The notes under the pieces are model-generated. The model ran no database searches. It was not told the origin of the DNA and saw nothing but the letters and a program-made list of their open reading frames with translations. From positions 62,001 to 126,000 of the forward strand of contig NZ_BMJB01000003.1 in NCBI RefSeq assembly GCF_014642855.1: DNA of 64,000 nt, in the 5' to 3' direction. The first letter of the stretch is position 1. Every line of letters begins with the position of its first letter. Positions 49,119 to 59,908 of this stretch are shown here, piece after piece. Made by a program: the position numbers and the translations under genes. Source of the DNA: Edaphobacter acidisoli (GTDB lineage Bacteria > Acidobacteriota > Terriglobia > Terriglobales > Acidobacteriaceae).

Positions 49119-52100
49119 CTACCGCACCTCCGTCAGCCTGTCCGTCTCAGCCGACATCTTCGCCGTCCGATCCAGCTTGTCCCAGTTGAACGGCTTCCCA
49201 TCGATCGCCCGCTTCACCGTCTTGAACAGCACCACCGCAAAGACCTGCCGGTACGTGAACCGCTGGATCCAGATGTGCACCAGCAGCCAGGCATCTCCCT
49301 TGCTCGCCGGATGCCTCCGCTCCAGCATGAACGCCAGCACCGACGTGATGAAGTCGATCACCAGGAAGACCAGGAAGAACGCCAGCAGCTTATAGAAGCT
49401 ATCCGGCGAAGCCGTCAGCGGGTGGAAGTACCGATCCAGTGCGAAGTGGATCGCACCCAACACGAACATCAGGTCGATCAGCGGAGAGACCAGCGGCAGA
49501 AAGATCTGGAAGATCAGGATGTTCGGCAGCGCGAACAGTCCCATCGCCTTGTTCCGGGTAATCGCCCCGCGGTGCTTCCACACCGCCTGCAGAATCCCGA
49601 ACGACCAGCGGAACCGCTGCCGGATCAGCCCATCTGCATTCACCGGGGCCTCGGTAAACGCCAGCGCCTGGTCCTCGTAGATCGCCGCGTAACCCTGCTC
49701 CAGCAGATTCATCGTCAGGTCGGCGTCCTCGGCCACCGTGTTCGAGTGGTATCCACCAGCCACCTTCACCGCCGACGTCCGCCACGCGCCAATCGCCCCC
49801 GGAACCACCGGCACCACGTCAAACAAATCCAGCGCGCGCCGCTCGAAGTTCTGGCTCGTGATGTACTCGAGCGCCTGCCACCGCGTCCAGAGGTTCACGC
49901 GATTGCCGACCTTCGCATTGCCCGCCACCGCGCCGATCTTCGGGTCAGCAAACAGCGGCACCAGCCGCCCGATAGCATCGTGCGCGATCACCGTATCCGC
50001 GTCGATGCCGACATAAATCTCTTCATCGAAGTGATCGAGCGCATAGTTCAGCGCCTCCGCCTTGCCCGCATTCGGCTTCGTCAGCACCGTCAACCGGCCC
50101 GAAGCGATGTCCGCCGGATAAGCCGCCTTCGCTACCTCGTATGTCTTGTCCGTCGAGCCATCGTCGATCACGATGATGCGGATGTTCTTGTAGTTCGACA
50201 TCATCACCGAACGGATCGTCCGCACGATCACCTTCTCTTCGTTGTACGCAGGAATCAGCACCGCGACGCGCGGCATATAGTTCGCATCCGCATAGTTCGG
50301 CCGCTTGCGGAAGCGGTCGATCAGCGCGCAGACTCCCATAATGATCAGCCGCGCGCTCATCAGCACGTCGCCGATGAAGAACAGGTCAACCAGAAAGTTT
50401 TGAAAGAAGCCGACAAAGAAGAACGTAACCGAGTCTGCCCTCGCCTGCCATCTCTGATGCGGAGTCAGCAGAGGCATCACCTGATCGCGCGTCTTGCCCA
50501 GCAGGTCCGACACCGGAACAATCTCATAGCCATGCGCACGCAGGCTCGTAATCAGCAACGGCAACGCCGCCACCGTCGCCGAGCGGTCGCCGCCGCTGTC
50601 ATGCAGCAGAATGATCGATCCCTTTGTCCAGGGCTTGTCCTTCATCCCGGCAATCTGCTCGAAGACGCTGTCCGTAATCTCCTGCGGGCTCTTCCGCGGA
50701 TGCTCGTCCCAGTCGTTCGTGTCGATCTTGTTCCCCAGAATGGTGTAACCCATGTTCTGGATGCGATCGACCGGTGCAGCCTGATCGTTAGTATCCGGCT
50801 CTTGGTCAATCGAATATGGTGGACGGAAAAACAGCGGTTGCACACCCAGCTTCGCGGCAAACAAGCGCTCCGTCAGATTCAGCTGCAGGTCCACCTGAGC
50901 GTTCGAAATTTCGCTGATGTCAGGATGCGTGAAGGTATGGTTGCCGATCTCGTGTCCCTCGCGGTACACACGCTCCATGATGCCCACGTTCTTCTCGGCG
51001 TTCTCGCCAATCATCAGGAACGTAGCCTTGACGTTGTACTTCTTCAGGATGTCGAGAATCTTCGGCGTCCATACAGGATCGGGCCCATCATCGAACGAGA
51101 GCGCAATCTTCTTCGGGTTATACCCATACTGCTGGACCGTGTACGACAGCGGATACGAGTTCATCGTCTCCTGAGAGATCGTGCGATAACCCACAGGGAC
51201 CGACTCATCATCGTCCATCGTCATCGTGCGCTCGCCATCCTGTGGCCGTCGCGTGATGCGCAGAATGTCTCCATCGCCCTCGGTATCGACGTCGTATCCC
51301 GGAGGGACCTTTGCAAGTGCCTTGATCGGGTCCACCTTGTTCGGCGAGTCCCAGATCTTCCACAGCGAGTTGTCTTCAGAACCGAGTTGCCATAAAGCAA
51401 ACGTCTGAATGCCGAGCGCCTGCGCCGCGCGCATCTCGTTCAGCACTGTCACTGCATCCAGAAACCACACCTGATGCCGGATGTGCGCGTCCTCATCGTC
51501 ATAGGCAAAGTGCGGATTCAGCGAGTCCGGATCGAGAGCTACCTGCGCCTCGGAGTCGTAAGCCTCCTGCCATGCCTCCTGCGTTGAAAGATTGCGTGAT
51601 CCCAATACTTTCTCCGGCTGTGGCTTCGGTCGCTGTCCACGGCGCGGAGGCGGCGGCAGCGTCGTGCTCCAGTCGTAGCCATAACTGCCCACCGAGCAAA
51701 TAATCTTGTCCTTCGGCACAGTCTTCAGCACTGTCTTCAGGTTGTTCAGGAACCAGTCCTGCGCGGCAATCGGTCCCGGTCCGCTATCGATCTGGTGCTG
51801 GTCATAGTTCATCAGCAGCAGGCCATTCGAGTGATTGGCCAGGAACGTCAGATTGAAGTCATCGTCATCAACCGGAGCGTTCACATACAAGCTCCAGTTG
51901 TGCGGATGAAAGTCGTCATACAAAGCGCCAACCAGCGCGTTGAAGCCTGGCTGCGCGTCAGTCGGAATCTCTTCCAGGTCGAGCGAAATGCCGTGATAAC
52001 CCGGATTGGCCGACAAAAACTTATCGATCTGCTTGACGAAGTTTGCCCGAGCGTCGGCATCATTCAGAAAATCGCCGATCTCCGGCAGAAAGTAGCCCTT

Positions 52101-52658
52101 CGTCGGATCGTAGTTATTGACCAGCGGAAAGACTTCCGTGTTGACGTGGTTTTTCGCGATGGTCCTGGCAACCTGGTTCTCGCGGTCCACCTGATGCACT
52201 CCAGTGGAATCGACCACAGCAAAAGGCGTGTTGTCTTCCGAATAGCCGGTCAAAGAACCGTCAGGCGTAACCACATGAAGCCACTCAGGAAAGAGCAGGT
52301 CAATCTGGCTGATGTGCTGTTTGAGCGAAGAATAGCTGGCCGGATCGTCGACTACATAGTATGCCGCACGAAGACCTTCGCCAGAGTTCAGCGGCACCGC
52401 CGACGGCTTCGTATCCGTCTTACGATGGGCGGACCGACGCAGCTTCTGGACAGTCTTCGCGCTCTTAGGAGGAGTGGCAAGCGCGCGATAGTTACGCTTC
52501 GGAGTCGCCAGGAGCAGCTCCGGCAATGGCTTCATTCGCAACAGGTTGATGATGAACAAGGTCCCCAGCAACAGTCCTGCGAGGGCCAGTATGTCGAAGA
52601 TGCGTCGCAGCCTCTTCCAGCGCTTACGCTGCGGATCATAGAAAACTTGTTTGTTCAT
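49119..52658 (-). CDS. GH18-like / NodB deacetylase / GT2 glycosyltransferase fusion
   Basis: 1179 residues in three enzymatic parts. A membrane helix (about 22-40) is followed by a GH18/PgaB-like glycoside hydrolase domain (about 95-450) with GISLDLEEI near 223-231. A NodB domain follows (about 515-720) with SFDDGPDP (521-528), HTFTHPD (574-580) and RPPYS. Then come a membrane segment, a family 2 glycosyltransferase (VAVLIPAYNE about 798, DAD at 887, AEDADL near 976, QRFRW at 1014) and further helices. It probably makes, deacetylates and trims a poly-N-acetylglucosamine-like polymer. A divergent GT39-like gene lies upstream. Confidence 0.88.
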   Translation of the reverse strand: MNKQVFYDPQRKRWKRLRRIFDILALAGLLLGTLFIINLLRMKPLPELLLATPKRNYRALATPPKSAKTVQKLRRSAHRKTDTKPSAVPLNSGEGLRAAYYVVDDPASYSSLKQHISQIDLLFPEWLHVVTPDGSLTGYSEDNTPFAVVDSTGVHQVDRENQVARTIAKNHVNTEVFPLVNNYDPTKGYFLPEIGDFLNDADARANFVKQIDKFLSANPGYHGISLDLEEIPTDAQPGFNALVGALYDDFHPHNWSLYVNAPVDDDDFNLTFLANHSNGLLLMNYDQHQIDSGPGPIAAQDWFLNNLKTVLKTVPKDKIICSVGSYGYDWSTTLPPPPRRGQRPKPQPEKVLGSRNLSTQEAWQEAYDSEAQVALDPDSLNPHFAYDDEDAHIRHQVWFLDAVTVLNEMRAAQALGIQTFALWQLGSEDNSLWKIWDSPNKVDPIKALAKVPPGYDVDTEGDGDILRITRRPQDGERTMTMDDDESVPVGYRTISQETMNSYPLSYTVQQYGYNPKKIALSFDDGPDPVWTPKILDILKKYNVKATFLMIGENAEKNVGIMERVYREGHEIGNHTFTHPDISEISNAQVDLQLNLTERLFAAKLGVQPLFFRPPYSIDQEPDTNDQAAPVDRIQNMGYTILGNKIDTNDWDEHPRKSPQEITDSVFEQIAGMKDKPWTKGSIILLHDSGGDRSATVAALPLLITSLRAHGYEIVPVSDLLGKTRDQVMPLLTPHQRWQARADSVTFFFVGFFQNFLVDLFFIGDVLMSARLIIMGVCALIDRFRKRPNYADANYMPRVAVLIPAYNEEKVIVRTIRSVMMSNYKNIRIIVIDDGSTDKTYEVAKAAYPADIASGRLTVLTKPNAGKAEALNYALDHFDEEIYVGIDADTVIAHDAIGRLVPLFADPKIGAVAGNAKVGNRVNLWTRWQALEYITSQNFERRALDLFDVVPVVPGAIGAWRTSAVKVAGGYHSNTVAEDADLTMNLLEQGYAAIYEDQALAFTEAPVNADGLIRQRFRWSFGILQAVWKHRGAITRNKAMGLFALPNILIFQIFLPLVSPLIDLMFVLGAIHFALDRYFHPLTASPDSFYKLLAFFLVFLVIDFITSVLAFMLERRHPASKGDAWLLVHIWIQRFTYRQVFAVVLFKTVKRAIDGKPFNWDKLDRTAKMSAETDRLTEVR

Positions 52659-54279: not shown

Positions 54280-55878
54280 ATGGCCACCGCAGAACTCTCG
54301 CCCACGACCGCCTATTCGATCTCGCTTACGCCCTTCGCCAACGAGCCGTTCGTCGACTTCAGCAAGGGAGAAAACAAGCGCGCGATGGGAGACGCGCTCG
54401 ACCTGGTCACTGCAAGTCTGGGCCGCGAGTACGACCTCATCATCGGCGGCAAACATCTCCGCACCACCAGCAAGATCGTCTCCTCAAACCCCGCGCGCCC
54501 GGCTGAAGTCGTCGGCATTCATCAGCGCGCTGGCGCCGAGCACGTCGAAGCCGCAATGCAAGCAGCGCAAGCGGCATTCCTCAAGTGGAAGACCGTCCCT
54601 GTCCCCGAGCGCGCAGGCCTGCTCTTCCGCGCGGCCGAGCTGATTCGCCAGCGCAAGTTCGAGTTCCACGCCTGGCTCGTCTACGAAGCCGGCAAGAACT
54701 GGGCCGAAGCCGACGCCGACGTAGGCGAGACCATCGACTTCCTCGAATTCTACGGCCGCGAAGCCCTTCGTCTCGACGCCGCAACGACCCCAATTCAGTA
54801 CCCCGGCGAACGCAACCGTCTGCGCTACATCCCGCTCGGTGTCGGCGCAGTCATCTCGCCGTGGAACTTTCCCTTCGCCATCATGGCTGGCATGACCGCC
54901 GCAGCCATCGTCTGCGGCAACACCGTCGTCCTGAAGCCATCCGTCGATGCCCCCACCATCGCCGCGCGATTCATGAACATCCTCATCGAGGCTGGCCTTC
55001 CCGACGGCGTCGTCAACTTCTGCCCCGGCGAAGGACACGAGTTCGGCAGCGCCGTCGTCCGGCACCCGCAGACGCGCTTCATCTCCTTCACTGGCTCGAA
55101 AGCCGTCGGCCTCGAGATTCACGAGCAGGCCGCTAAAACCCACCCGGGCCAGATCTTCATCAAGCGCACCATCCTCGAGATGGGCGGCAAAGACTCCATC
55201 ATCGTCGACGCAGACTGCGACATCGACGCCGCAGTCGAAGGCGTCGTCGCCAGCGCCTTCGGCTTCAACGGCCAGAAGTGCTCCGCCTGCTCGCGCGCCA
55301 TCGTCGACGCGACCATCTACGACAGCTTCTGCGACCGGCTCCGCGAGCGCGTATCCGCAATCAAAACCGGCAATCCCGCCGAGAACGTCTACACCGGTCC
55401 CGTCATCAGCGAAAAAGCCTACAAAAAAATCCTCGACTACATCGAAATCGGCAAAGGCGAAGGCCGTCTGCTGAATGGCGGCCACTCCATCGAAACGCCA
55501 GAAGGCGGCTACTACATCGCTCCCACCGTCATCGCCGACGTCTCCCCAACCGCGCGCATCGCGCAGGAGGAGATCTTCGGTCCTGTCCTGGCCATCATCA
55601 AGTCCGAGAACTACGACGACGCCCTTGCCATCGCCAACAACACCGAATACGGCCTCACCGGCTCCATCTACTCGCGCTCACGCGAGAAGCTCGACCGTGC
55701 CGCCGAAGAGTTCCACGTCGGCAATCTCTACTTCAACCGCAAGAGCACCGGCGCCATGGTCGGCGCTCACCCATTCGGCGGCTTCAACATGAGCGGCACC
55801 GACTCCAAAGCCGGCGGCCCCGACTACCTGCTGCTCTTCACGCAAGCCAAGAGCATCGGAGAAAAACTGACGCGCTAA
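54280..55878 (+). CDS. pruA: L-glutamate gamma-semialdehyde (P5C) dehydrogenase
   Basis: 532 residues, NAD-dependent aldehyde dehydrogenase that turns glutamate semialdehyde into glutamate, the last step of proline breakdown. The long N-terminal part PFANEPFVDFSKGENK, the cofactor motifs PWNFPFAIMAG and FTGSKAVGLEI, the general base Glu in LEMGGKDS and the nucleophile Cys in FNGQKCSACSRA are typical of PruA/RocA. The C-terminus ends GGPDYLLLFTQAKSIGEKLTR. No proline dehydrogenase gene is beside it. The stop overlaps the stop of the converging regulator gene by 4 bp. Confidence 0.95.
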   Translation: MATAELSPTTAYSISLTPFANEPFVDFSKGENKRAMGDALDLVTASLGREYDLIIGGKHLRTTSKIVSSNPARPAEVVGIHQRAGAEHVEAAMQAAQAAFLKWKTVPVPERAGLLFRAAELIRQRKFEFHAWLVYEAGKNWAEADADVGETIDFLEFYGREALRLDAATTPIQYPGERNRLRYIPLGVGAVISPWNFPFAIMAGMTAAAIVCGNTVVLKPSVDAPTIAARFMNILIEAGLPDGVVNFCPGEGHEFGSAVVRHPQTRFISFTGSKAVGLEIHEQAAKTHPGQIFIKRTILEMGGKDSIIVDADCDIDAAVEGVVASAFGFNGQKCSACSRAIVDATIYDSFCDRLRERVSAIKTGNPAENVYTGPVISEKAYKKILDYIEIGKGEGRLLNGGHSIETPEGGYYIAPTVIADVSPTARIAQEEIFGPVLAIIKSENYDDALAIANNTEYGLTGSIYSRSREKLDRAAEEFHVGNLYFNRKSTGAMVGAHPFGGFNMSGTDSKAGGPDYLLLFTQAKSIGEKLTR

Positions 55879-56531
55879 GCAGACCTCATCTGCAGCAGGT
55901 TCCCTGCCTTCGCCGCAGCCTCGGCCAGCACGCGATGATGAATCGTGAACAGCGCCAGCTCCAGCCTGTCCGATACACCCGTCTTGTCATAAATCCCGCG
56001 CAGGTAATTCTTAATCACCTGTTCCTTGGTCCCAAGCTGGCTCGCAATCTCCTTGTTCTTGCACCCCTGCACGATCAGCGAGACGATCTGCATCTCCTTC
56101 GGCGTCAGCCGGTCGCGTACGCGCGTCCCAACCGAGTCCGCCGTATGCATCGTCGTCACGTTCGTATGCTGCACATAGCGCTGCCCACTCGACACCCTGC
56201 GCACGCAGTCCACCAGGTCCGCGCCCAGGATATTGCGCCGCACCACGCCATCGAAGAGATGGACGACATTCTCTGCAAGCTGCTCCGTGTTCTCCGTAAC
56301 CAGAATCGCGTGGCTTCCAAGCGGCTGTGTGTGTGAGACCAGCGCCGCAAAATCCGGGCACAGGCTGGTCGAGACCATCACCGTCGCATTGCGAAAGCTG
56401 TCCACAGCCGAAAAGAGCTTCGCCACGTCCTCGCACTGGGCCACAATGCGCATATCGTCTTCCAGCGCCAGCACGCGGGCCGCTCCAGCCCTGAAGATTG
56501 CCTGATTGTCGGCCAGAATAAGTCGGTTCAT
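55875..56531 (-). CDS. LuxR/NarL-type regulator with receiver lacking the phosphoacceptor Asp
   Basis: 218 residues from MNRLILADNQAIFRAG. The receiver domain (1-120) keeps an acidic Asp at residue 8, but the expected Asp at position 54 is Ser in VMVSTSLCPD, so normal phosphorylation is unlikely. A LuxR helix-turn-helix follows at about 150-205 (LTPKEMQIVSLIVQGCKNKEIASQLGTKEQVIKN). It may bind DNA constitutively or sense another signal. It is divergent from the receiver/FAD-reductase gene and could control it. Start at 56531 is chosen by domain; in-frame Mets at 56582 and 56642 exist. Confidence 0.87.
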   Translation of the reverse strand: MNRLILADNQAIFRAGAARVLALEDDMRIVAQCEDVAKLFSAVDSFRNATVMVSTSLCPDFAALVSHTQPLGSHAILVTENTEQLAENVVHLFDGVVRRNILGADLVDCVRRVSSGQRYVQHTNVTTMHTADSVGTRVRDRLTPKEMQIVSLIVQGCKNKEIASQLGTKEQVIKNYLRGIYDKTGVSDRLELALFTIHHRVLAEAAAKAGNLLQMRSA

Positions 56532-56777: not shown

Positions 56778-58424
56778 ATGCCGAAGCCAATTCTGCTCGC
56801 GATCGACGACGACACCAGTGTGCTGGAAGCCGTAGTTCAGGACCTGCGCCGCCACTATGGCCAGCAGTACCGCATCATCCGTGCGGCCTCTGGCGCAGCC
56901 GCGCTCGACATCTGCCGCCAGTTGCAGGAGCGCAAGGACATCGTCGCACTCTTCCTCTCCGACCAGCGCATGCCCGGCATGACTGGCGTCGAATTCCTCG
57001 AACAGGCGCTCACCATCTATCCCGAGGCCAAACGCGTCCTCCTCACCGCCTACGCCGACACCGAAGCCGCCATCCGCGCCATCAACTCGGCCAAGATCCA
57101 CTACTACCTCAACAAGCCCTGGGACCCGCCCGAAGAAAAGCTCTACCCGGTCCTCGACGACCTGCTCGAAGCCTGGAAGCAAGGCTACAAACCTCCCTTT
57201 GAAGGCATTCGGGTCATCGGCACCCGCTGGTCGCCCAAGGACCACGCCGTCCGCGACTTCCTCTCGCGTAACCGCATCCCCTACCAGTGGCTGACGCCCG
57301 AGCAGAGCACCGAAGCAGTCGATCTGCTCAGGGAAAAAGGCCTCGACGACTCCAAGCTCCCCGTAGTCGTCTTCGGCGACGGCACCGCGCTCGTCCAGCC
57401 CACCACCATCGACCTCGCCAACAAGGTCGGTATCTCGACCCAGGCGCAGCAGCAGTTCTACGACGTAGTCGTCGTCGGTGCAGGCCCCGCCGGCCTCGCC
57501 GCGGGAGTCTACGGCGCGTCCGAGGGCCTCAAGACACTCATCGTCGAGCCAAACGCACCCGGTGGCCAGGCCGGCTCCAGCTCACGCATCGAAAACTACC
57601 TCGGCTTCCCCAACGGCCTCAGCGGAGACGAGCTCGCCAAGCGCGCCTTCCTCCAGGCCGGCCGCCTCGGCGCCGAGTTCCTTCTGCAAAAAGTCACCAG
57701 CATCCGCCAGGAAAACCAGTACCGCGTCGTTGGCATGAAGGACGGACGCGAGGTGACATGCCACGTTTGTTTGATTGCAACAGGCGTCTCTTATTGCAAG
57801 CTGGATATACCGGGAGCGGACAAGTTCGCAGGCGCTGGCATCTACTACGGCGCGGCCCTGACGGAAGCAATGGCATGCGCAAACGAAGAGGTCTACATCG
57901 TAGGCGGCGCAAACTCTGCCGGACAGGCGGCGATGCACTTCTCCCGCTACGCTGCCAAGGTGCGGATGCTCGTGCGCGGAGACTCGCTCGCCAAAAGCAT
58001 GTCCAAGTACCTCATCGACCAGATCGAGGCGACGCCCAACATCATCGTCGAAACCCATACCGAAGTCATAGCCGCCTCCGGCAACGACCATCTAGAATGC
58101 CTGATGGTCCGCACGCCGCATGGCGAAGAATCACGCCCCACCAGCTCGCTCTTCATCTTCATCGGCGCCGAGCCCAAGACAGACTGGCTGCCGAACGATG
58201 TCCTGCGCGACGGCAAGGGCTTCGTCTTCTCCGGTCCCGAACTCAAAGCGAAGTGCCCGAAGTCGTGGAAGCTCGACCGCGAGCCGTATCTGCTCGAGAC
58301 CAGCGTCCCCGGCGTGTTTGTTGCAGGCGATGTGCGGTATAACTCCGTGAAGCGGTGCGCTTCAGCCGTTGGCGAAGGCTCCATCGCAATTCAGTTTGTG
58401 CACCAGTATTTAGCAACATTGTGA
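56778..58424 (+). CDS. Receiver domain / thioredoxin-fold / FAD-dependent reductase fusion
   Basis: 548 residues. Residues 5-125 form a receiver with the phosphoacceptor Asp at 62 (FLSDQRMPGM) and Lys at 113 (LNKPWD). Residues ~140-215 look like a small thioredoxin/glutaredoxin-like fold (IRVIGTRWSPKDHAVRDFL, VVVFGDGTALVQP). From ~228 comes a thioredoxin-reductase-like FAD/NAD(P)H module (VVVVGAGPAGLAAG, GGQAG, VYIVGGANSAGQAA, VPGVFVAGDVRYNSVKRC). The CxxC redox motif of true thioredoxin reductase is absent, so the electron acceptor is unknown. A histidine kinase gene follows after 23 bp. Confidence 0.9.
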   Translation: MPKPILLAIDDDTSVLEAVVQDLRRHYGQQYRIIRAASGAAALDICRQLQERKDIVALFLSDQRMPGMTGVEFLEQALTIYPEAKRVLLTAYADTEAAIRAINSAKIHYYLNKPWDPPEEKLYPVLDDLLEAWKQGYKPPFEGIRVIGTRWSPKDHAVRDFLSRNRIPYQWLTPEQSTEAVDLLREKGLDDSKLPVVVFGDGTALVQPTTIDLANKVGISTQAQQQFYDVVVVGAGPAGLAAGVYGASEGLKTLIVEPNAPGGQAGSSSRIENYLGFPNGLSGDELAKRAFLQAGRLGAEFLLQKVTSIRQENQYRVVGMKDGREVTCHVCLIATGVSYCKLDIPGADKFAGAGIYYGAALTEAMACANEEVYIVGGANSAGQAAMHFSRYAAKVRMLVRGDSLAKSMSKYLIDQIEATPNIIVETHTEVIAASGNDHLECLMVRTPHGEESRPTSSLFIFIGAEPKTDWLPNDVLRDGKGFVFSGPELKAKCPKSWKLDREPYLLETSVPGVFVAGDVRYNSVKRCASAVGEGSIAIQFVHQYLATL

Positions 58425-58447
58425 AAGGCGGCAAGAACAGAACGACC

Positions 58448-59908
58448 ATGAACGAACAGGCCCAGGCAGTCCAGAACAAGGAAGCGATGAGCGAAGCTCT
58501 CGTCGAGAAGCTGCGCACCGTACCCATTCTGTCGTCTTTGAAGGATGAAGAGCTACGCTGCCTGGAAGGCGTCGAAGAAATCCGGCTGACAAAAGGAACG
58601 ACACTCGTGCATCAGGGCGAGTCCGTTCACAATTTCTGGATTCTGCTCGAAGGCGAGGTGCAGATCTTCTGGGTGCAGCCCGATGGCCGCGAAACCTCGG
58701 TAGCCTCCATGCCCAAAGGCGCTGCCTTCGGCGAGGTGCCTCTGCTGGCAAACATCCCCTGCGTCGTCAATGTAAGGGCCGCGGCAGACTCCGACCTCCT
58801 GCAGTTAAGCGAGCAGGGTTTCTGGAATCTGATGACCACCTGCCCGACGGTTCGCAAAGCCATCCTCGCCAACATGGGCGACCGTTTCCAGCGCATGCAA
58901 AGCGTCACCATCCAGCAGGAGAAAATGGCGTCCCTCGGCACACTCGCTGCCGGCCTCATGCACGAGCTCAAAAATCCAGGCTCCGCCGCGCGCCGCGCCG
59001 CCTCGCAGCTCCGTCAGAACCTGATGCGCATGCACGAGCTCTCGCGCAAATTCAAGCAGAGAGACCTGACCATCGAACAGAAAAAGTGCATGTTCGAGAT
59101 GCAGGACCTCGCACTCGCTGAACAAAAACCCCGCGTGATGAGCTCACTCGAGCAGAGCGACGCCGAGGAGCATCTGGCCGAGTGGCTTGAGTCCGTCAAC
59201 GTCGAGAATGCCTGGAAGCTCGCTCCCACACTGGTCTCCATCGGCATGGACGAAAAAGAACTCACCTGCGCGAGGGCCGAGTTTCCCGGCGAAATGCTTT
59301 CCGACGCACTCAGCTGGCTCGACGCAATGGTTTCGAGCATGCAACTTGTAGGCACAATCGAAGAGAGCATTGGCCGCGTGACCGACCTCGTTCACGCGGT
59401 CAAATCATATGCGTACGAAGGCAAAGGCAAACGCCAGGCCATCGACGTCAACGAGAGCATCCACGCCACCATCCTCATCCTCGCCCACAAGATGCGCGAG
59501 AAAGAGCTCACCATCGAGAAGACCTTCAGCCCCGATCTCCCTCCACTCGAAAGTGACTCCACCGGCCTCAATCAGATCTGGACCAACCTCCTCGACAACG
59601 CCATCGACGCCGCGCCCCAGAAGGGCAAGATCCAGGTCCGCACGTGGGCCGAGAAGTCCGACGCGAACGGCGCCAATCCGCACACCGAGCTCTGCGTCAT
59701 GGTGGCCGACAACGGTGGCGGCATCCCCGCAGAGATCCAGCCTCAGATCTTCGACCAGTTCTACACCACAAAACCAGTCGGCGTAGGCACAGGTATCGGC
59801 CTCGGCATCGTGCAGCGCATCGTGGACCAGTACGGCGGCAGCATCCACTTCTCCTCCGTACCCGGCAACACCGAATTCGTCGTGCGCATCCCCGCCACCC
59901 GCCAGTAA
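58448..59908 (+). CDS. Cyclic-nucleotide-binding-domain sensor histidine kinase
   Basis: 486 residues. An N-terminal cNMP-binding domain (about 25-140, GTTLVHQGESVHNFWILLEGEVQIF, PKGAAFGEVPLLANIP) is followed by an H-box with His172 (AAGLMHELKNPGS), a long helical insert, and the ATPase domain (NQIWTNLLDNAID, VADNGGGIP, GTGIGLGIVQRIVDQYGG). It has no membrane segment, so it is cytosolic. It likely phosphorylates the receiver of the reductase fusion just upstream. What binds the cNMP domain (a cyclic nucleotide or, as in some Crp-like domains, another signal) is not known. Confidence 0.9.
   Translation: MNEQAQAVQNKEAMSEALVEKLRTVPILSSLKDEELRCLEGVEEIRLTKGTTLVHQGESVHNFWILLEGEVQIFWVQPDGRETSVASMPKGAAFGEVPLLANIPCVVNVRAAADSDLLQLSEQGFWNLMTTCPTVRKAILANMGDRFQRMQSVTIQQEKMASLGTLAAGLMHELKNPGSAARRAASQLRQNLMRMHELSRKFKQRDLTIEQKKCMFEMQDLALAEQKPRVMSSLEQSDAEEHLAEWLESVNVENAWKLAPTLVSIGMDEKELTCARAEFPGEMLSDALSWLDAMVSSMQLVGTIEESIGRVTDLVHAVKSYAYEGKGKRQAIDVNESIHATILILAHKMREKELTIEKTFSPDLPPLESDSTGLNQIWTNLLDNAIDAAPQKGKIQVRTWAEKSDANGANPHTELCVMVADNGGGIPAEIQPQIFDQFYTTKPVGVGTGIGLGIVQRIVDQYGGSIHFSSVPGNTEFVVRIPATRQ

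Follow-up and report, generated by a model that had tools for sequence, protein, structure and literature searches.

A candidate two-component system of Edaphobacter acidisoli whose output appears to be a cysteine-less flavin enzyme

We describe a pair of genes in a 64,000-nucleotide stretch of the Edaphobacter acidisoli genome (assembly GCF_014642855.1, contig NZ_BMJB01000003.1, positions 62,001-126,000 of the forward strand), which we call the window and whose own coordinates we use throughout. The first gene encodes a response regulator with an enzymatic output, in which a receiver is followed by a glutaredoxin-like domain and by a module that binds flavin adenine dinucleotide (FAD) and nicotinamide adenine dinucleotide or its phosphate, NAD(P), and resembles thioredoxin reductase; the second encodes a soluble histidine kinase, the likely partner of the receiver. 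The two open reading frames, which an earlier sequence-only reading of this DNA had placed exactly, lie on the same strand with 23 nucleotides between them, in an operon-like arrangement (Table 1). On balance we lean towards explaining the whole as a cytosolic two-component system with a flavin enzyme as its output, and the sequences suggest that an electron-transfer enzyme is under direct control of the phosphate signal. To our knowledge, nearly all two-component systems that have been studied well act in the end on transcription, on motility or on the turnover of cyclic-di-GMP. If our explanation is true, switching a flavin enzyme by phosphorelay would couple sensing to electron flow within seconds, by means of a small, soluble, two-protein system that occurs in hundreds of species, among them soil bacteria and cyanobacteria.

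That the two proteins belong together, as the earlier reading had held, is borne out by their inheritance. Among 60 genomes of the same genus, 55 contain both genes and the remaining five contain neither, and in all 30 genus loci that we read the genes for flavoprotein and kinase are adjacent. Outside the genus, 63 of 86 loci have the kinase gene immediately downstream, and 74 have a family kinase within the flank. Full-length relatives at 54-85% identity, far beyond chance, are present in many phyla, and counting one genome per species we find at least 584 related places. The named loci come from Acidobacteriota, Cyanobacteriota, Deinococcota, Actinomycetota, Pseudomonadota, Chloroflexota and Myxococcota, along with one Hymenobacter (Bacteroidota), so that the pair spans at least seven phyla, a count that does not depend on the Hymenobacter locus. 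Nor do we count as proteobacterial the record L118, titled Betaproteobacteria bacterium, which the genome search places among the Acidobacteriota and whose title is probably wrong. In samples of single phyla the counts were 34/297 for the phylum of Edaphobacter itself, 10/244 for that of a cyanobacterial locus, 14/195 for that of a Myxococcus locus and 20/251 for that of a Chloroploca locus. A Calothrix genome yields 38 kinase matches, two of them near full length, and the best of these (36% identity) is the gene neighbour.

Some individual loci have arrangements of their own. In Hymenobacter montanus, the sole Bacteroidota locus (L126:3008-4744), the family kinase lies just upstream, not downstream, of the receiver-flavoprotein gene. 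At nine loci outside the genus (L040, L043, L067, L072, L077, L079, L094, L107 and L113) two or three family kinases surround one receiver-flavoprotein gene, although one of these cases is perhaps a split gene.

The receiver retains the residues expected for phosphorylation: D10, D11, D62, T90 and K113 are each conserved in 86 of 87 sequences. Direct reading of the codons places the predicted phospho-acceptor Asp62 and phospho-donor His172 where the earlier reading had named them. The segment that follows the receiver is assigned by profile comparison to the glutaredoxin fold. A family profile of residues 137-222 matches the glutaredoxin Rv3198A (2lqo) at 2.8e-8, and the Pfam Glutaredoxin model is matched in 12 of 18 family members, with E-values up to 0.1. 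The active-site cysteine is nonetheless absent, and RWSPKD stands in place of xWCxxC.

The FAD module has likewise lost its catalytic cysteines. The CAxC of thioredoxin reductases of the E. coli type aligns with G358/L361, and across the 87 sequences of the receiver-flavoprotein family no cysteine is invariant. The earlier reading of the protein as a receiver, a thioredoxin-fold segment and a thioredoxin-reductase-like FAD module without CxxC thus agrees with the Response_reg, glutaredoxin-profile and Pyr_redox_2 matches and with the residues at the CxxC site. With both CxxC motifs gone and not one cysteine invariant, electrons cannot pass through a thiol relay like that of thioredoxin reductase or AhpF. 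Labelling members of this family as thioredoxin reductases is therefore likely to be wrong, as the catalytic cysteines are missing throughout. By contrast with these losses, GxGxxG in the FAD site, the motif GGANSAGQAA and, in the NAD(P) site, R400 are all near-invariant, and for this reason we consider that the module is probably still a flavoprotein reducible by NAD(P)H.

We examined the flavoprotein in an AlphaFold2 model with a mean predicted local distance difference test score (pLDDT) of 86.7 and a predicted template-modelling score of 0.70, in which residues 265-278 are of low confidence and which is no guide to how the receiver is positioned against the enzyme. The FAD module has the fold of low-Mr (low relative molecular mass) FAD/NAD(P) enzymes, with 4a5l as its best match (Z 32.9, 1.9 Å over 303 residues). 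Thioredoxin reductases are solved in two domain arrangements, called flavin-reducing (5mh4) and flavin-oxidising (5mjk) in the structure titles; we take 1f6m to represent the former, 1tde and 1trb the latter, and 4a5l to resemble the flavin-reducing state. The model lies 2.9 Å from 5mh4 and 1f6m, or about 2-3 Å when 4a5l is included, as against 7.9-8.2 Å from 5mjk and 1tde and about 8 Å from 1trb. If the preference is real, the flavin-reducing arrangement would set NAD(P)H beside the flavin, as a cysteine-less reductase needs.

The kinase begins with a beta barrel whose cNMP_binding score (66.5 bits against a cut-off of 27.5) identifies the fold of cyclic-nucleotide-binding domains. The earlier description of a cyclic-nucleotide-binding domain is therefore right about the fold and improbable as to the ligand. 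The phosphate-binding arginine is missing family-wide, its position being taken by C105 in the window kinase and most commonly by V, A, Y, F, S or L among 82 kinases, and so cyclic AMP or cyclic GMP is an unlikely ligand. In a family kinase of Nostoc edaphicum (L039:11281-12669) a receiver-like N-terminus replaces the barrel.

The remainder of the protein carries the motifs of a HisKA-type histidine kinase, with H172 present in 80 of 82 members and N384 and G449/G451 invariant. The HisKA match itself is weak (13.8 bits against a cut-off of 26.9, with just 10 of 82 members matching at 0.001), because a helical insert interrupts the DHp hairpin. In the kinase model (pLDDT 91.3) this insert sits between the two DHp helices and takes up residues 209-278. 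The distance from His172 to Asn384 amounts to 202-215 residues across the family; in ordinary kinases the spacing from H-box to N-box is about 100 residues shorter. The insert is found family-wide and might be a second site for sensing or docking. Reading the kinase sequence by eye, with no predictor run, showed no transmembrane segment.

Table 1. Positions of the two genes, their domains and key residues, and the neighbouring regulator, in window coordinates.
Feature	Position	Strand	Evidence
Response regulator with enzymatic output, receiver - glutaredoxin-like - FAD/NAD(P) thioredoxin-reductase-like, 548 aa	56778..58424	+	Open reading frame, Pfam, family alignment, AlphaFold2 model with mean pLDDT 86.7
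Receiver domain, residues 1-118, with D10, D11, D62, T90, K113	56778..57131	+	Response_reg 2.8e-14 (residues 7-118)
Codon of predicted phospho-acceptor Asp62	56961..56963	+	GAC read directly; invariant in 94 sequences
Glutaredoxin-fold domain, residues 144-218, CxxC replaced by RWSPKD	57207..57431	+	Profile match to glutaredoxin 2lqo, 2.8e-8
FAD/NAD(P)-binding low-Mr thioredoxin-reductase-like module, residues 227-548	57456..58421	+	Pyr_redox_2 7e-33 (residues 228-534); structural match to 4a5l
Site of missing CxxC, residues 358-361, GAAL	57849..57860	+	Alignment to thioredoxin reductases; G358 invariant in 94 relatives
Lone conserved cysteine C367	57876..57878	+	Cys in 81/87 sequences
Soluble histidine kinase, 486 aa, likely receiver partner	58448..59908	+	Pfam, co-presence, adjacency, model pLDDT 91.3
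Cyclic-nucleotide-binding-type beta barrel, residues 16-131, C105 replacing phosphate-binding Arg	58493..58840	+	cNMP_binding 2.1e-18; column counts over 82 kinases
Codon of predicted phospho-donor His172	58961..58963	+	CAC read directly; His in 80/82 kinases
Helical insert in DHp hairpin, about residues 206-281	59063..59290	+	Model secondary structure; His172-Asn384 spacing
ATP-binding catalytic domain, residues 330-484	59435..59899	+	HATPase_c 1.3e-25; 82/82 family members match
Divergent NarL-type regulator with degenerate, aspartate-less receiver	55875..56531	-	GerE 1.1e-11; no receiver match in Pfam

The assignment of the flavin module as the output draws on paralogues within the same genus. 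In these the glutaredoxin-FAD unit recurs with its motifs unchanged, again without CxxC, placed behind a cyclic-nucleotide-binding-type domain, behind another N-terminus, or behind nothing. When a profile of the kinase barrel is run over ten genus genomes, the ten partner kinases come first and the next seven matches are barrels fused to the glutaredoxin-FAD unit (95-106 bits); a CRP-sized protein, at 88 bits, ranks after these seven. Because the fused domains are the nearest relatives of the kinase barrel, the path from sensor to His to Asp to flavoenzyme can be read as a one-component design recast in two-component form. The simplest reading of these sequences is that a single sensor family controls a single enzyme family, whether fused to it or connected by a His-Asp relay. 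Proteins named by NCBI ‘cyclic nucleotide-binding domain-containing thioredoxin-disulfide reductase’ have the same unit and motifs, and differ from the window protein in that their own sensor-type domain is fused directly rather than connected via a kinase and a receiver. In its most general form, the proposal is of a cysteine-less glutaredoxin-FAD family with interchangeable inputs (direct fusion, or kinase plus receiver), in which His-Asp phosphorylation would switch NAD(P)H electron transfer to a non-thiol acceptor, making it a case of direct two-component control of redox metabolism across many phyla; we consider the chances for and against this general form to be evenly balanced.

From these observations we infer the following course of phosphotransfer, gating and acceptor chemistry. 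The kinase would sense a cytosolic ligand or partner, probably not cyclic AMP, through its N-terminal barrel and perhaps also through the helical insert; it would then autophosphorylate on His172 and pass the phosphate to Asp62. Once phosphorylated, the receiver would pack differently against its two neighbours, the glutaredoxin-like domain and the FAD/NAD(P) module, so that the flow of electrons from NAD(P)H via FAD to an acceptor would open or close. With no CxxC in either domain, the reduced flavin would hand its electrons straight to the acceptor, with no cysteines in between, and the glutaredoxin-like domain would serve as a non-catalytic docking or coupling domain.

Several points weigh against this proposal. 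A strong family kinase is lacking from the flank at 14 of the 86 loci outside the genus. We also considered covariation between the receiver and the DHp domain as evidence of contact, and rejected it: over 143 pairs, 21 of the top 50 fall in the receiver where 10 are expected, but once the Acidobacteriaceae are left out the count is 8 against 10.6. The excess is thus a lineage effect and lends no support to direct contact. That the structural model prefers one domain arrangement could be an AlphaFold2 artefact. The papers that were searched hold no biochemistry on such a kinase/receiver-flavoprotein pair, just as the earlier reading had supposed; for the fusion, the kinase and the zinc finger protein discussed below, they yielded one mention of REC-thioredoxin reductase proteins, in an archaeal census (PMC5847659). 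Finally, the flavin module could be a sensor instead of an output.

Under this last possibility, a reverse flow, the FAD module would act as a redox sensor, and the state of its flavin, set by the NAD(P)H pool, would alter phosphorylation or dephosphorylation of the receiver, thereby tuning the kinase or a phosphate sink. The absence of an evident acceptor, the loss of both catalytic CxxC motifs, and a soluble kinase tightly linked to the flavoprotein gene all accord with it. The kinase, however, already has a sensor domain of its own, the sensor-fused paralogues fit better with the flavin unit as the common output, and most loci encode no recurrent second kinase target nearby; we regard a reverse flow as unlikely.

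Alternatively, the flavoprotein might be a catalytically silent scaffold in which FAD is structural only and phosphorylation controls the assembly of partners, such as the UBP-type zinc finger protein of actinobacteria. The gene for that protein lies directly after the kinase gene in Streptomyces and Tsukamurella (L041:10107-10460 and L042:10137-10487), and a scaffold would also tolerate the loss of both CxxC motifs. Such a protein would have no need of the NAD(P)-binding motif and R400, which are near-invariant over many phyla, and we therefore think a scaffold distinctly improbable. As an obligatory third part of the system we rejected the zinc finger: adjacent in actinobacteria, it stands alone here, about 64 kb from the pair (G000:C3:54800-54997). 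Among the first 25 genus genomes it is also absent from the three without the pair, but these three are small drafts.

Two further explanations merit very little credence. One takes the protein for a thioredoxin reductase that a two-component system controls, in line with the annotation sometimes given to similar fusions; it would fit the fold and the best structural matches, which are thioredoxin reductases, but the CxxC mechanism is refuted by the absence of the redox CxxC from 94 of 94 aligned relatives, none of the cysteines is invariant, and the score of 208 bits against the thioredoxin-reductase model TIGR01292 falls short of the NCBIfam cut-off of 343. Equally hard to credit is that the genes are chance or merely syntenic neighbours and the kinase serves other receivers, a notion in keeping with the failed covariation test and the loci without a kinase, yet at odds with perfect co-presence in the genus and with adjacency across distant phyla.

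A two-component system with a flavin enzyme as output, the explanation we prefer, has known relatives of several kinds. A census of archaeal genomes names predicted outputs of the REC-thioredoxin reductase type, from unfinished metagenomic samples (PMC5847659). Those proteins share with ours the fusion of a receiver to an enzyme; the window protein differs in lacking CxxC and in having a glutaredoxin-like domain and a specific soluble kinase, and the census passages that treat them give no mechanism (PMC5847659). Receiver-enzyme fusions as a kind are thus already known, and the window family, with a recognisable receiver and an enzyme domain, would be a widespread member.

The flavoprotein subunit of alkyl hydroperoxide reductase, AhpF, resembles the window protein in build, with a thioredoxin-fold part at its N-terminus and then an FAD/NAD module of matching fold (4o5q, Z 29.6 over 307 residues); AhpF, however, has cysteine pairs in both parts and no receiver, whereas the window protein has neither CxxC. 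The low-Mr thioredoxin reductases, which share the FAD/NADP fold and provide the nearest solved structures, differ in that the window protein has lost their CxxC and gained a receiver and a glutaredoxin-like domain. Ferredoxin/flavodoxin-NADP reductases of the thioredoxin-reductase-like type bind FAD and NADP and have no CxxC. These are stand-alone enzymes, and although they occur among the structural matches (6gar, Z 27.2, about 5 Å) they fit the model less well than do the reductases in the flavin-reducing arrangement. DDOR and FFTR are cyanobacterial flavoproteins, likewise diverged relatives of thioredoxin reductase, that have kept CxxC and lost the NADPH motif (PMC9025218); the window family is the opposite case, with CxxC lost and the NAD(P) motif kept.

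Among the surrounding genes, the divergent NarL-type regulator adjoins the pair in 30 of 30 genus loci and in 19 further Acidobacteriaceae loci, and its helix-turn-helix is strongly conserved. This qualifies the earlier suggestion that the pair may control a redox enzyme rather than transcription: the output is indeed an intact module for FAD and NAD(P), rather than a domain that binds DNA, but within the Acidobacteriaceae a transcription regulator lies next to it. The regulator persists in three genus genomes that were examined and do not have the pair, and so it may act on the promoter region or may be merely syntenic. No close relative of it was found beside the pair in other phyla. Given its retention without the pair and its absence from beside the pair in other phyla, we dropped it as a part of the system and treat it as a neighbour.

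Farther away in the window, a long open reading frame on the reverse strand (49119-52658, 1179 aa) looks by reading, with no family search run, as if a glycoside-hydrolase-like part had been fused to a polysaccharide deacetylase and a glycosyltransferase. At four cyanobacterial loci (L039, L044, L088 and L097) the pair follows genes for glycogen debranching and for an AGE-family epimerase.

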